This document shows, piece by piece, positions 32,337-55,299 of a stretch of DNA of 64,000 bases. The position numbers were made by a program, and so were the translations under genes. The DNA is from Candidatus Rokuibacteriota bacterium (GTDB taxonomy: Bacteria > Methylomirabilota > Methylomirabilia > Rokubacteriales > CSP1-6): positions 1 to 64,000 of the forward strand of contig QHSU01000067.1 in the NCBI GenBank assembly GCA_003220535.1. The letters run 5' to 3'. How positions within the stretch are numbered: position 1 is the first letter of the stretch; the number at the start of each line of letters is the position of its first letter. Below the pieces are notes generated by a model. The model searched no databases. It saw only the letters and a list, made by a program, of their open reading frames with translations, and was not told the DNA's origin.

Positions 32337-32505
32337 GTGCGACTCCTTTCAGCGGTGAGGGTTCGCGGCCCCGCACAGAGCGGGTAGGGCCTTCATTAAG
32401 CCCGGAAAGCCGGCCCCGTCAACTGCTTTCGTAGGGCGCTTCTGTCGAATCCTCGCGAGCCCTGCACCATGGGGCGCGCGAGTGGTAGAGTCTTGGCCAC
32501 GAAGG

Positions 32506-32566
32506 GCAGTGCGAGCCGCAGCGCGTCGTGGGGCTGGGGCCCCGCCGTGCGAGGCGAGCCTATGAA
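32506..32566 (+). repeat. Leader repeat family, copy A (32 kb pair)
   Basis: This GC-rich unit is the first of two tandem copies in the 294-bp gap between the NIPSNAP and Asp-box genes. Its core can form a hairpin: GTGGGGC (32528-32534) with GCCCCGC (32539-32545) around TGGG, using one G-T wobble. The same unit occurs as a tandem pair at 47458-47580 in the opposite genomic orientation but the same orientation relative to the downstream gene. Confidence 0.75.
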
Positions 32567-32569
32567 TCA

Positions 32570-32618
32570 GCAGTGCCTCGTGGGCTGGGGCCCCGCCGTG
32601 CCAGGCGAGCTTACAAAT
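32570..32618 (+). repeat. Leader repeat family, copy B (32 kb pair)
   Basis: The second tandem copy is shorter than copy A by loss of about 15 bases after GCAGTGC. It shares the TGGGGCCCCGCCGTG core and GGCGAGC tail with copy A. Its end abuts the AGGAGG ribosome-binding site at 32619-32624 of the Asp-box gene (ATG 32631), so the pair lies within the presumed 5' leader. Confidence 0.72.
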
Positions 32619-32630
32619 AGGAGGTCGGCC

Positions 32631-33692
32631 ATGGTGAACCCGTCAGGACTCACGCACGTTTACGTCGGCGCGGCGGCGCGGATTCCCGGCGCGCTCGGGG
32701 GGATTTTCCGGCAAACCGTGGGCAGCGACCACTGGGAGTTGCTCGGCAAGGGGTTGCCCGAGCGAGCGGACGTCCAGGCGATCATCATTCACCCGACCGA
32801 TCCCAACGTGATCTTCGCGGGGTCTCAGGACGGCCCGTACCGGAGCCGCGATCGCGGGGCGAGCTGGGAGAAGCTCCCCTTCCCGGACTCGGGGCTGGAA
32901 GTCTGGTCGATCCTCATTCATCCACGTGATCCCCAGACCATGTACCTCGGGACCTCTCCGGTGGCTGTTTACCGCAGCGACAACGGTGGGGATTCCTGGC
33001 GAAAGCTTCCGGGCGTGAACTCGCCGGGGCGGGTCAAGATGGGCTTCCCGTGCCGTGTCACCCGGCTCGCGATCGACCCGACGTATCCCGACGAGATCTA
33101 CGCAGGACTCGAGGTCGACGGGGTTCTGAGAAGCCGCGACCGAGGGGAGACCTGGGAGGATGTCGGCCACGACCTCGTCAAGCTCGCCGAGCGTCCGCAC
33201 CTCAAGAGCCGGATCGCGAGCGACACCGAGAACGAGGGCATGCTCGACTCGCACGCGCTGACCGTGTCGAGCGCACAGCCGGGCACCGTCTTCCTCGCCG
33301 TGCGCATGGGCCTCTTCCGGAGCGCCGACCGTGGCAAGACTTGGGAAGACATGGAGATCGGACGCTTCTCGCCGCTGACGTACGCGCGTGACGTGCAGGT
33401 CTCGCCCCACGATTCCAGAACGCTGGTCGCCGCTCTGAGCCCCGCCGCGCGAAGCAAGGACGGCTCGCTCTATCGCAGCGACGACCTCGGGCAGACTTGG
33501 CGGCGCATCGACCACGGCATCAAGGCGGAAAGCACGATGATGGCGGTGTCGCTGCACCCACGAGATCCCGATCAGGTCTACAGCGTCGCGCGACAGGGGC
33601 AGGTCTTCGGCACCCGGGACGGCGGCCGGAGCTGGAAAGAGTGGCGGCTACCGGAGAAGGTTCAGGACATCTACGCCGTCGCCTGCGGCTGA
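32631..33692 (+). CDS. Asp-box (BNR/YCF48-like) repeat propeller protein
   Basis: A 353-residue protein built from six Asp-box units of the S/T-x-D-x-G-x-S/T-W type: YRSRDRGASWEKL, YRSDNGGDSWRKL, LRSRDRGETWEDV, FRSADRGKTWEDM, YRSDDLGQTWRRI and FGTRDGGRSWKEW. These mark sialidase-fold or YCF48-like propellers. No signal peptide is visible. ATG 32631 is chosen because a perfect AGGAGG sits six bases before it; the frame open from 32469 would translate the repeat pair. Function unknown; members are used as exported or cytoplasmic binding propellers. It is the only plus-strand gene in its surroundings and its leader carries the tandem repeat. Confidence 0.82.
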   Translation: MVNPSGLTHVYVGAAARIPGALGGIFRQTVGSDHWELLGKGLPERADVQAIIIHPTDPNVIFAGSQDGPYRSRDRGASWEKLPFPDSGLEVWSILIHPRDPQTMYLGTSPVAVYRSDNGGDSWRKLPGVNSPGRVKMGFPCRVTRLAIDPTYPDEIYAGLEVDGVLRSRDRGETWEDVGHDLVKLAERPHLKSRIASDTENEGMLDSHALTVSSAQPGTVFLAVRMGLFRSADRGKTWEDMEIGRFSPLTYARDVQVSPHDSRTLVAALSPAARSKDGSLYRSDDLGQTWRRIDHGIKAESTMMAVSLHPRDPDQVYSVARQGQVFGTRDGGRSWKEWRLPEKVQDIYAVACG

Positions 33693-46600: not shown

Positions 46601-47268
46601 GCCAGCCCCTGCACCGCATCGAGGAAGTCGGCGCCGAAGGCCCCGTAGGCGCGATTGCGCGCGAGGCTCGCCTGGCGGTCGCGACCGTGCCAGAGGGCGG
46701 GCGCCAGCAGCACGCCGAACGCCGCCACCAGCAGCACGAGCGCCACGGGCAGGTCCACGAAGGCGACGAACGCGAAGATCAGCAGCGGAGTGAGAGCGGC
46801 CACGAAAAGCTGGGGGAGATACTGACCGAAGTACACCTCGAGCTGCTGCACGCCCTCCACGAGGGCGAGCATCACGTCACCGGTGCGGGCGCGCGCGAAA
46901 TGGGCGGGACCGAGCGCCGCCACCTGCGCGTAGAGCGTCTGCCGCAACCGCTCTTGCACCCGGGCCGCGGTGTGATGCGAGACCATGGTGCGGACATAGT
47001 CGAGCGCGCTGCGGCAGGCGAGCGCCACCGCGGTGAGCGCGATGGCGGGGGTGAGCGACGCGAGCGACTCGCCGGCCAGCACGCGGCCCAGGAGCCAGCC
47101 GAGAAGTGCCAAGCGCAAGATTCCGGCGGCAACGGCGGCGAGGCTGACGAGGACGGTCGCGGCGATCCGACCGCGGACACCCGACGTGAGCGCCCAGAGC
47201 CTCGGGTCCAGGTACACGCGGGCTAGCCTAGAGCCTATTCCAGATCTTGGGAAGAGTGAGATGAGCAA
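43630..47268 (-). CDS. Fused full-length ABC exporter (TMD-NBD-TMD-NBD), CydDC-like
   Basis: A 1212-residue single-chain exporter. Residues about 20-320 form the first TMD (with CydD-like 'FGQYLPQLFVAALTPLLIFAFVAFVDLPVALVLL'). The first NBD has GPSGSGKST, LSGGQRQRIAIARALL, VLDEALSSVD and FAHRLSS. A charged linker leads to a second TMD (about 650-940) and a second NBD with GPSGAGKTT, LSGGQRQRVAIARAFL, LILDEATSHLD and IAHRLST. Both ATP sites look competent. The two halves correspond to the separate CydD and CydC-type genes of other bacteria, here in one frame. The start is unsure: TTG 47268 overlaps the upstream small gene by 41 bp, while GTG 47217 lies just after it. Confidence 0.88.
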   Translation of the reverse strand: MLISLFPRSGIGSRLARVYLDPRLWALTSGVRGRIAATVLVSLAAVAAGILRLALLGWLLGRVLAGESLASLTPAIALTAVALACRSALDYVRTMVSHHTAARVQERLRQTLYAQVAALGPAHFARARTGDVMLALVEGVQQLEVYFGQYLPQLFVAALTPLLIFAFVAFVDLPVALVLLVAAFGVLLAPALWHGRDRQASLARNRAYGAFGADFLDAVQGLATLKAFGQSAARARQLEERAHTLFKSTMWVLGSNTLARGITDAGIAVGAAVALALGAWRVSAGAMSLPALLVILMLGVEVFRPLRELRILLHQGMLGLSAARGIFAILDATPLVHDRPPGPDPTDAGVAFEAVTFSYPGARRPTHVDLSFRVRPGERVAIVGPSGSGKSTIARLLLRFHDPDRGRVDMGGRDLRELSLEQVRARVALVSQETWLFHGTVEDNIRMGKPDASADELRAAARAANAEEFILRLPQSYDTVVGERGVRLSGGQRQRIAIARALLRDAPILVLDEALSSVDAESEALIQAALDRLMRGRTTLVFAHRLSSVVGADRILVLDQGRLVEQGTHGELLGRGGVYARLMAGQARDGAGAVAVGARPTALAADGDGTNADAGVEASDDAHAIVGAEAVGWGAVLRTLIDKTRGYRGQLTLTFALGVARVTALIGVGVLSALAVRAVKRGEPAGALIASLLVVAPLAGALHWVESWLAHDVAYRLLTDMRLGVFKKLDALAPAYLTRRRSGDLVGAATHDVELIEYFFAHTITPAFVAVLVPAAVLVALGAFGAALVLVLVPFLLYTALVPVLGRARIDHLGSRAREASGDLNAHVVDTVQGLAEIVAYRRVTTWGEALAAKASRFYELRLPFLRDLARQTALQETATGLGGLAVIAIGAWLAHQGRLDAGTLPLLTLLALSAFVPLWEVAQVGRQLADTLGAARRLGAVEAEPVPVTDGPGVPSIAVRGAIAIELADVRFAYPGRPRAAVDGVSLRIPDGSTVALVGPSGAGKTTVASLLLRFWDPQSGVIRLFGHDLRQYGLDELRRRIALVAQDTYLFNDTLRANVLLARPDADEASLGLAIGRAALGELVEGLPDGLDTVVGERGAQLSGGQRQRVAIARAFLKDAPVLILDEATSHLDAVSEAAVRAALERLARDRTTLVIAHRLSTVRDADAIVVLDHGRVVEVGRHAELITRGDLYAHLVARQLAGGIPTAAD

Positions 47269-47440
47269 CCCAGGCGACCGTCGCTTGCCACCAGAGCCCG
47301 GACCAGGTCGGCCGGGCGCTGTCGCGACTCACCTCTCCCCGGAGCGATTGCCGAAGCATCGAATGGAACGCGCCGCGCGCCTCGGCCTCCCGGAGACGCT
47401 CCCTGATCAGGTAATGCGCCAGATATTCATTCTCGTGCAT
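47228..47440 (-). CDS. Small hypothetical protein, 70 residues
   Basis: The product starts MHENEYLAHYLIRERLREAEARG, a charged amphipathic helix, followed by Ser/Arg-rich residues and a Trp-rich end (TWSGLWWQATVAWVAHLTLPKIWNRL) that could touch the membrane. I recognise no family. ATG 47440 is strongly supported by a perfect AGGAGG seven bases upstream; the frame open to 47659 would translate the repeat pair and is rejected. It precedes, and may be translationally coupled to, the fused ABC exporter. Its leader carries the tandem repeat 47458-47580. Confidence 0.7.
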   Translation of the reverse strand: MHENEYLAHYLIRERLREAEARGAFHSMLRQSLRGEVSRDSARPTWSGLWWQATVAWVAHLTLPKIWNRL

Positions 47441-47457
47441 CGCGTGTCCTCCTGAGG

Positions 47458-47518
47458 TTAGAGTCGCGCCTCGGCCGGTGGCGCCCCAGCCCGCGACGGC
47501 CTGCGGCGCGCACCACCA
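47458..47518 (-). repeat. Leader repeat family, copy nearest the gene (47 kb pair)
   Basis: A 61-bp unit directly adjoining the next copy. Relative to the small gene at 47440 it ends four bases before the AGGAGG. The core hairpin is disturbed here (GGCGCC in place of GGGGCC and one G lost). Confidence 0.8.
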
Positions 47519-47580
47519 TTTAGAGTCGCGCCTCGGCCGGCGGGGCCCCAGCCCCGCGACGGCCTGCGGCGCGCACCACC
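47519..47580 (-). repeat. Leader repeat family, distal copy (47 kb pair)
   Basis: A 62-bp unit nearly identical to the adjacent one (about four differences). On the plus strand GCGGGGC (47540-47546) pairs perfectly with GCCCCGC (47551-47557) around CCCA; on the gene strand the loop is TGGG, as in the 32-kb copy. The pairing is kept there through a G-T wobble. Confidence 0.8.
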
Positions 47581-52938: not shown

Positions 52939-55299
52939 TCAGCGCCGAGCTTTCGCGTCCCGGATGGCGCGCCAGACGCGCTCGGCCGTCACCGGCATGT
53001 CGAGGTGTCGCACGCCGAGCGGCGCCAGCGCGTCGTTCACCGCGTTCAGCAGGGCGGGCAACGCGCCCACCGTGCCGGCCTCGCCGACACCCTTGGCGCC
53101 GAGCGGATTCACCTGCGTGGGCACCTCGTGGGAATCGACGTCGAAGGCGGGCACGTCGTCGGCGCGTGGCATCGCGTAGTCCATGAAGGACCCGGCGAGC
53201 AGCTGGCCTGTCGTCGGCTCGTAGGCGAGCTGCTCGAAGAGCCCCTGGCCGAGGCCCTGGACGACGCCGCCGTGGATCTGCCCCTTCACGAGCATGGGGT
53301 TCACCATGCGCCCCACGTCGTCGACGACGCAATGGCGGACGATGCGCACGGCGCCGGTCTCCTCGTCGATCTCGACCTCGCAGATCTGCGATCCGTTGGG
53401 GAACGTGACTGCGGGCGGCGTGAACGTCGCCTCCTCGCTGAAGCCCGGCTCCATCCCTTGGGGAAGCTGGCGCGGCTGGTAGGCGGCGCGCGCGACGTTG
53501 GCGAACGTCACGCCGCGGTCGGTGCCCGTCACCGTGAACTTCCCGTCGCGATGCACCACGTCCTCCGGCGCGGCCTCCAGCAGACGCGCGGCGATCCGGC
53601 GGCCGCGCTCGATCACCTTCTCGGTCGCGCGCGTGACGGCGGAGCCGCCCACGGTGAGGGCGCCCGAACCGCCGTTGCCGCGCCCGGCGCCGAGGGCGTC
53701 GCTGTCGCCCCAGAACACCTGGATGCGCTCGGGCGGCACGCCGAGCCGATCGCTCACGATCTGGGCGAAGGCCGTCTCGTTCCCCTGGCCCATCGACGTC
53801 GAGCCTGCGAACAGGGACACGGAGCCGTCGGGATTGACCCGTAGCTCGGCGGTATCCGGGTTCATGGCCGTGTAGGGCCCGCCGGCGACCTCGATCGGGT
53901 TGGCGATGCCGAGACCGCGCAGCTTGCCGCGCTGGCGCGCCTCGGCACGCCGCTTCTCGAACCCCGCACGGTCCGCGAGGCCGAGCGCCATGTCCATGCC
54001 GAGGCCGAAGTCGCCGCAGTCGTAGGTGAAGACCAGGCCTGTCTTGAATGGCATCGCCGTCGGCGGAATCAGATTGCGGCGGCGCAGCTCGACGGGATCG
54101 ATCTTGAGCTCGAGCGCCGCCACGTCGATGACGCGCTCGATGGCGTACGTCGCCTCCGGGCGGCCGGCGCCACGGTAGGGTCCCGTGGGCGTCGTGTTCG
54201 AGAACACGCCCGTCGTCTGGACGTGGATCGCCGGCGTCGTGTAGACCCCGGCGACGCCACCGACGTTGTTGGTGCCCGGGCCCGCGCTGCGCGGCGTGAG
54301 ATAGGCGCCGACGTTCAGCGTGATGGCCACGCGCAGGGCCAGGAATTTTCCGTTCGCGTCGAGCGCCAGCTCGGCGGTCGAGACGTTGTCGCGACCGTGC
54401 TCGTCGGTGACGAAGCCCTCGCGCCGTTCGGACGTCCACTTGACCGGCCGTCCCAGCCGCTTCGCCGCCCACAGGACCAGGGCGTGCTCGGGATAGACGC
54501 CGCTGCGCATCCCGAAGCTTCCGCCCACTTCCCCAGTGACCACCCGCAGGTGGCTCTGCGGCACCCGGAAGATCTGGTCGGCGAGCAGTGCGCGCAGGCC
54601 GTGCGGCGCCTGGATCCCCGTGTGAAGCGTGTAGCGGCCCGAGCGCCGGTCCCATTCGCCGACCGCGCCGCGCGGCTCGAGCGGCGCCGCGGCCACGCGC
54701 GAGACCACGAAGTCGAGGCGCGTGACGTGGGTAGCGCTCGCGAACGCGCGCGCCACCGTGTCCTTGTTGCCCGCCTCCCAGACGAAGGCCACGTTGTCGG
54801 GCGCCTCGGCCCACACCGCCGGCGCGCCCGGCCGCGCGGCGTCGGGCGTCGCGGCGACGGCCGGCAGGGGATCGTAGTCGACCGTGACCAGCTCCGCCGC
54901 GTCGACCGCCTGATCGGGAGTCGCGGCGACCACGAGCGCCACCGGGTCGCCGACGTGGCGCACGCGGTCGCGGACCAGCGCCGGCCGCGGTGTCGCGAAC
55001 GCCGGCGATCCGTCGCGCCGCTTGCGCGTCTTGTCGGTCGGCAAATCGCCGAGCCCGTCCGCCGCGAGGTCGGCGCCCGTGAGGACGGCGAAGACCCCCG
55101 GCGCTCCGCGGGCGTTCGCGGTATCGAGGGACCGGATCCGCGCGTGGGCATGGGGCGAGCGGACGACGACGGCGTAGGCTTGGTGCGGCAAGCTCACGTC
55201 GTCCGAGTAGCGCCCGAAGCCCTGGATGAGGCGCGGGTCCTCCAGACGACGCACGGACTGTCCGATGGCGAATTTCTCGACGGTCACCAGATTACTCAT
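52939..55299 (-). CDS. Xanthine dehydrogenase/CoxL-family molybdopterin-binding subunit
   Basis: A 786-residue large subunit of the molybdenum hydroxylase family: 'AIGQSVRRLEDPRLIQGFGRYSDDV', 'VVTGEVGGSFGMRSGVYPEHALVLWAAKRLGRPVKWTSERREGF', 'TPTGPYRGAGRPEATYAIE', 'GSGALTVGGSAVTRATEKV' and the catalytic Glu in 'NPLGAKGVGEAGTVGALPALLNAV'. It has no CoxL AYRCSFR-type loop, so it is a form II/aldehyde-oxidase-type enzyme, not CO dehydrogenase. The FAD (CoxM) and 2Fe-2S (CoxS) subunits are not adjacent. Cytoplasmic; hydroxylates an aldehyde or N-heterocycle. The next gene (amidohydrolase) could act on the product. Confidence 0.88.
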   Translation of the reverse strand: MSNLVTVEKFAIGQSVRRLEDPRLIQGFGRYSDDVSLPHQAYAVVVRSPHAHARIRSLDTANARGAPGVFAVLTGADLAADGLGDLPTDKTRKRRDGSPAFATPRPALVRDRVRHVGDPVALVVAATPDQAVDAAELVTVDYDPLPAVAATPDAARPGAPAVWAEAPDNVAFVWEAGNKDTVARAFASATHVTRLDFVVSRVAAAPLEPRGAVGEWDRRSGRYTLHTGIQAPHGLRALLADQIFRVPQSHLRVVTGEVGGSFGMRSGVYPEHALVLWAAKRLGRPVKWTSERREGFVTDEHGRDNVSTAELALDANGKFLALRVAITLNVGAYLTPRSAGPGTNNVGGVAGVYTTPAIHVQTTGVFSNTTPTGPYRGAGRPEATYAIERVIDVAALELKIDPVELRRRNLIPPTAMPFKTGLVFTYDCGDFGLGMDMALGLADRAGFEKRRAEARQRGKLRGLGIANPIEVAGGPYTAMNPDTAELRVNPDGSVSLFAGSTSMGQGNETAFAQIVSDRLGVPPERIQVFWGDSDALGAGRGNGGSGALTVGGSAVTRATEKVIERGRRIAARLLEAAPEDVVHRDGKFTVTGTDRGVTFANVARAAYQPRQLPQGMEPGFSEEATFTPPAVTFPNGSQICEVEIDEETGAVRIVRHCVVDDVGRMVNPMLVKGQIHGGVVQGLGQGLFEQLAYEPTTGQLLAGSFMDYAMPRADDVPAFDVDSHEVPTQVNPLGAKGVGEAGTVGALPALLNAVNDALAPLGVRHLDMPVTAERVWRAIRDAKARR

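Follow-up and report, generated by a model that had tools for sequence, protein, structure and literature searches.

A lineage-specific family of 62-nt, probably mobile hairpins with 3′ ends facing gene starts in Rokubacteria

In stabilizing 5′ leaders of the ompA type, which are conserved leaders of single genes, a hairpin precedes the ribosome-binding site. The repeat unit of Rokubacteria described here also places a hairpin 5′ of the ribosome-binding site, but its units are dispersed and mobile. REP elements of the GTAG and CGTC super-families resemble it as short palindromes that occur in many copies, mainly between genes, and vary between genomes (available text of PMC3733652). REP elements are moved by IS200/RAYT transposases (PF01797); according to the same text, the GTAG types go with RAYTs, and the CGTC type lacks a dedicated transposase, as the Rokubacteria unit appears to. 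There are several differences from REPs: the Rokubacteria unit measures 62 nt rather than 20–40, it precedes gene starts whereas REPs sit mainly downstream of genes (PMC3733652, available text), its close copies are same-direction tandems, its GTAG tag is not conserved and no Y1 transposase was found in the genus. The pneumococcal BOX, RUP and SPRITE repeats are likewise small and folded, and are thought to be mobile and non-autonomous; BOX can encode a start codon, as the tails of the Rokubacteria units sometimes do (available text of PMC3049150). However, these repeats are over-represented between convergent genes, and the ends of BOX and RUP resemble those of resident transposons. The selfish palindromes of Volvox organelles (about 50 nt, with loops of 3–5 nt) are often inserted in one another, a habit that the Rokubacteria units share; they differ in being organellar and, in the mitochondrion, AT-rich, and the available text (PMC2670323) draws no link to ribosome-binding sites. 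No homology is claimed.

The window, a stretch of 64,000 nt from a Candidatus Rokuibacteriota genome, contains two tandem pairs of the unit. These had been reported in a preliminary description, and all four copies were recovered where it placed them. On its own strand, each pair ends a few bases short of an AGGAGG and an ATG. Unit 1 of the 32-kb pair (32505..32566, plus strand; 74.4 bits over covariance-model positions 1–62) is of the GAGC type, and its outer pairs are possibly tandem G-A. Unit 2 (about 32567..32616, plus strand) is 5′-truncated and damaged: the first ~10 positions are absent, the covariance model scores 15.8 bits over 32570–32603, and nhmmer aligns model positions 11–58 at 32570–32616 (E 9.4e-07). 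The Shine–Dalgarno AGGAGG lies directly 3′ of it (32619..32624, plus strand), followed by a gene with BNR/Asp-box repeats (PF15902, PF02012; 32631..33692, plus strand). In the 47-kb pair, on the minus strand, unit 1 (47519..47580; 90.3 bits) is intact and consensus-like, and unit 2 (47457..47517; 71.2 bits) has stem mismatches and one deletion, confirming the damage described for the gene-proximal copy. Directly 3′ of unit 2 lies a second AGGAGG (47448..47453, minus strand), followed by a 70-aa ORF without a Pfam match (47228..47440, minus strand). This ORF separates the 47-kb repeat from a large gene, and by eye several orthologues of the site have similar short ORF starts following. The G-T wobble proposed at 32 kb is present as described; in a correction to that description, the truncated unit 2 does not fold into the family hairpin. 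Three of the four window copies belonged to the covariance model's own training alignment; a 32-base core, in a pattern written from the copies, gave two window matches with at most three mismatches and none in 100 dinucleotide shuffles. A weak model match inside a predicted gene (53501–53579, minus strand; 21.0 bits, E 0.0016) is perhaps a decayed copy or a chance match.

Regarding transcription signals at 32 kb, a possible −10 element, TAGAGT, was read by eye at 32486..32491 on the plus strand, and TANAGT occurs in all seven same-genus orthologues; a consensus promoter scan of the region gave no promoter at this site. A terminator scan of the 32-kb region found none, and a terminator role for the unit was rejected on this result. 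A promoter in the tail of the unit was also dropped, because transcription from it would start within or immediately 3′ of the Shine–Dalgarno sequence.

The unit is a single imperfect palindrome of 62 nt, ordered as a GTNG border, an outer helix, a GCA/GA internal loop, a middle helix, a UC bulge, an inner helix, a UGGG loop and an A/U-richer tail such as CTCTAAA or CTATGAA. At the 5′ border of 80 copies, the first and fourth positions are G (0.94 each), the second is T (0.49) or C (0.33) and the third is G (0.44) or A (0.28). An unpaired GTAG or CGTC end tag is therefore not conserved among these copies, although GTAG occurs at the 5′ border of some. Across 131 aligned copies (128 distinct), 91.6% of the pairing cells are paired. 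The stem covaries, which is support that the preliminary description had asked for: both sides have changed in 11 of the 18 pairs, in 79 cells compared with 15.0 ± 3.3 after shuffling and at most 18 when the alignment is slid. These figures come from a model-fitted alignment, and the shuffles leave relatedness in place. Two neighbouring pairs of the outer helix switch jointly, with G-C/C-G in 74 copies and G-A/A-G in 37; 8 copies carry just one of the two changes, and 12 are of other kinds. The joint switch fits tandem G-A pairs, although it may instead reflect one old subfamily split.

Covariance model R1, trained on 34 copies, gives at least 132 matches at E ≤ 0.01 in the window's own 7.18-Mb genome (150 candidates scored), the weakest having E near 1e-4 to 1e-3 and some being halves of nested units. 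A DNA search of the same genome, in which 40 candidates were scored, yielded 43 matches, and R1 gave 152 matches at E ≤ 0.001 in 94 stretches from genomes, with stretch overlaps counted. In a survey of the phylum with up to 56 candidates scored per genome, the unit was found in 44 of 95 genomes: 43 of 57 in its own family, 1 of 1 in family f2, none of 2 in f3 and f4 and none of 35 in f5–f10. An exact 42-base pattern matched at least 95 stretches in named genomes, and among the matches listed 80 of 80 are Candidatus Rokubacteria/Rokuibacteriota; searches of phages and plasmids gave no match. In Rfam no window match reached the gathering score, other matches lying far below theirs. A literature search covering published open-access papers listed no title or abstract recognizable as a description of this family, and the available text of the RepRanger paper (PMC12306157) does not mention 'roku'. 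Thus, the suggestions of many copies in this genome and its relatives, and of no matching described family within this search scope, both hold. The family is a lineage-specific set of 62-nt, probably mobile hairpins with more than 100 copies in its own genome.

Sites vary between relatives in presence and in the number of tandem units. We made 102 syntenic site comparisons, of which 20 were dropped as same genome and 17 for poor flanks. Among the 65 usable, partly overlapping comparisons, 30 partners are empty (a gap within 45 nt), 30 are filled and 5 are unclear. Counted per site, an empty partner exists for 25 of 50 and a filled partner for 26, where overlapping stretches count some sites twice and the filled count is inflated because partner loci were chosen for carrying a copy. 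The aligned filled and empty pairs include clean empty sites. No target-site duplication of the kind expected of a MITE is consistent across them, and 2–3 bp is possible at single sites. The two window sites were tested against whole genomes. Both 32-kb copies are absent from all seven same-genus orthologues found, conservation being 0/7; G055, the eighth of the other genomes in the genus, contains a distant paralogue only. The 47-kb site has two units in its own genome, one in G051 and none in four other orthologues, conservation being 1/5. One shared site has no unit in our genome (L207), one in L090 and L102 and two in L173, and several other shared sites differ in copy number. With many dispersed copies and variable window sites, the copied or mobile character first proposed is upheld.

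The units also insert into one another. In at least ten own-genome cases, and in L181, a unit replaces the TGGG apical loop of another; these were taken from 34 candidate rows, the remainder of which are tandem arrays or chance. A few further nested cases are visible among the copies. The inner units are of two types, GCAGGGCCGCCC-like and, in L243 and L181, GCAGCACGGCC; therefore, either nesting took place repeatedly or at least two events were followed by movement of intact composites. In several nested composites the tail of the outer unit abuts a Shine–Dalgarno-like sequence. Close copies are same-direction tandems: when copies <70 nt apart are joined into 119 sites, no cluster mixes strands. 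A few opposite-strand neighbours lie at slightly larger distances, for example 83595 and 83727 of C108. Close pairs are mildly commoner than random (12 compared with a mean of 5.8 and a maximum of 15). A three-unit array in L228 (5001–5190; C39:57726–57915) has a unit of subtype GCAGCACGGCCC between two GCAGGACGTCG units.

The 3′ end of the unit faces gene starts. With starts from our own gene caller (1775 genes, 89% coding), the 132 own-genome copies comprise 120 intergenic, 8 intragenic and 4 overlapping ones. The downstream gene is co-directional for 95 of the 120 intergenic copies, and the direction of the upstream gene is unbiased (60 versus 59, one unknown). After excision of the units, 119 sites remain, 24 of them called inside genes, and these were compared with 1000 runs of random placement within the same intervals. 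The 3′ end lies 5–25 nt before a same-strand start at 32 of the 119 sites, compared with 15.5 ± 3.1 (maximum 26), whereas the 5′ end is so placed at a divergent start at 8, compared with 15.5 (maximum 28); the link to Shine–Dalgarno starts in one orientation, noted at first from the window, thus extends to the genome. For the 68 sites in intervals of at least 80 nt, the counts are 20 versus 6.5 (maximum 17) for same-strand starts and 4 versus 6.4 (maximum 15) for divergent starts. In other genomes, where 19 of 75 sites are called inside genes, the same-strand count of 23 compares with 14.2 ± 2.9 and is below the null maximum of 24, and the divergent count of 7 compares with 14.5 (maximum 25). 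Without excision, 51 of the 131 aligned copies are start-adjacent; for 37 of these, the first Shine–Dalgarno-like motif comes 0–4 nt after the unit.

Such a bias could arise by targeting or by selection. Among 22 copies without a nearby start (none from −6 to +30, with offset-2 and in-tail starts excluded), 12 are followed by R-N-G-R at offset 2–5, compared with a background of 0.086. AGGAGG-type sequences match R-N-G-R and are already present in most empty sites at gene starts: a GGAG-type sequence occupies the Shine–Dalgarno place in all seven element-free same-genus orthologues at 32 kb, and AAGGAGG is present in three of the four element-free orthologues at 47 kb (L295–L297, and not L298). 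The start bias is similar at increasing distance from the consensus (14/32, 18/32 and 16/33, near to far). The motif at copies without starts and the flat bias favour targeting. The R-N-G-R preference, derived from 21 flanks, predicts 8.8 start-adjacent copies of 86, compared with 32 of 86 seen, so targeting as modelled, with this weak motif alone, is insufficient for the bias, which also requires stronger targeting or else immediate selection.

We regard the family, with good confidence, as a lineage-specific, non-autonomous mobile hairpin of 62 nt with an insertion preference for R-N-G-R that Shine–Dalgarno sequences satisfy. Machinery other than a Y1 transposase would insert the unit 5′ of a purine-rich R-N-G-R, a pattern that Shine–Dalgarno sequences would supply, and insertions inside genes would be purged; surviving copies would thus become 5′ leaders. 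No mobilizer was found, and this, like the lack of a consistent target-site duplication, counts against the reading. More speculatively, the self-contained hairpin and open tail, once transcribed, might keep the ribosome-binding site accessible, and this accessibility might render the insertion harmless or mildly helpful.

A second explanation, which we consider unlikely, is a functional leader RNA, for example a translation insulator or mRNA stabilizer, that spread by copying to many genes and was retained by selection at each site. The one-sided placement before gene starts and the covarying stem agree with it, as does the predicted accessibility of the start region, which is higher with the unit than with all four replacements. 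With the unit in place, the predicted openness across 45 start-adjacent genes is 0.493; it becomes 0.429 when the unit is excised (lower in 33 of 45 genes), 0.465 when it is shuffled (28 of 45), 0.422 when it is replaced by other intergenic DNA (36 of 45) and 0.433 when it is reverse-complemented (34 of 45). With 60 nt extra upstream the differences keep their sign (0.463 versus 0.403–0.440), and the median for 348 control genes with a Shine–Dalgarno sequence is 0.406. The predicted gain is modest (0.49 versus 0.42–0.47). Against a selected leader, conservation among orthologues is low at the two window sites, and stem pairing is no better at starts (0.889) than elsewhere (0.884). Wobbles are not clearly commoner than A-C mismatches, with 48 GU and 40 AC events without pair 14/129 (p 0.46) and 61 and 41 with it (p 0.06). 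In addition, the start bias does not rise with divergence, and similar intact copies lie inside genes and far from starts. From the turnover, the equal stem integrity and the similar GU and AC counts, no RNA-level selection after insertion is detected. Thus, in the proposal of a mobile or copied regulatory RNA or leader, the mobile or copied part stands, and the regulatory RNA part is not supported by these same three results.

Palindromes are prone to deletion, and the empty sites could mark ancestral leaders that were often lost in this way rather than gained by insertion. Short tail-like remnants precede the Shine–Dalgarno sequence in L279, the 32-kb orthologue in G054, and in L176 near 2806. 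These may be scars of lost units, and such 'empty' sites may then be deletions. As a general account, however, we find loss very improbable, given units nested in units, tandem arrays of differing number, near-identical copies at unrelated genes and the absence of the 32-kb pair in all seven same-genus orthologues.

Membership of the REP elements, with a RAYT (TnpA-REP) transposase as the mobilizer, would explain a short GC-rich palindrome with more than 100 mainly intergenic copies and GTAG at some 5′ borders, but is largely refuted and scarcely credible, because PF01797 (IS200/RAYT transposase) is found in none of the nine genomes of the genus, including our own at 93.8% completeness, and in 6 of 44 element-positive compared with 29 of 51 element-negative genomes, GTAG is unconserved, the unit exceeds 20–40 bp and REPs lie mainly downstream of genes (PMC3733652, available text). 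RAYT/IS200 was accordingly rejected as the mobilizer on its absence from all nine genomes. IS110 (PF02371) shows no link either, the copy-rich genomes G048, G049 and G051 of the genus having no match. Of the 17 proteins whose genes lie between close copies, 7 were Pfam-scanned, and none of these 7 is a transposase.

Returning to the mobile hairpin, a bolder version can be put forward only tentatively. The unit would be a selfish hairpin inserted by machinery with an affinity for translation-initiation sites (Shine–Dalgarno or AUG context) and for the loops of other such units. This machinery would involve no Y1 transposase, and perhaps no transposase yet described, and through it a single mobile element would repeatedly rewrite 5′ leaders, and at times start codons, of unrelated genes throughout a bacterial family. 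REP and pneumococcal repeats lie mainly downstream of genes or in convergent gaps (available text of PMC3733652 and PMC3049150), the opposite of the placement in Rokubacteria. If this placement is targeted, it indicates an undescribed mobilization route. Targeted or not, the family offers many natural pairs of filled and empty leaders for measuring the effect of a hairpin on expression in an uncultured phylum.

Lastly, the tail itself can coincide with a start. Among 97 copies without a following unit, 48 are start-adjacent, and in a further 9 the start codon falls in the tail or within 5 nt of it. Long ORFs start inside the tail in L233, L244 and L206, and at offset +2 (CTATGG) in L235, L254, L267 and L228:18100. 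With start codons in the tail or two bases after it, the unit may therefore provide some of the start signal itself. In L233, the unit's own GAGG lies 7 nt before the ATG in the tail.
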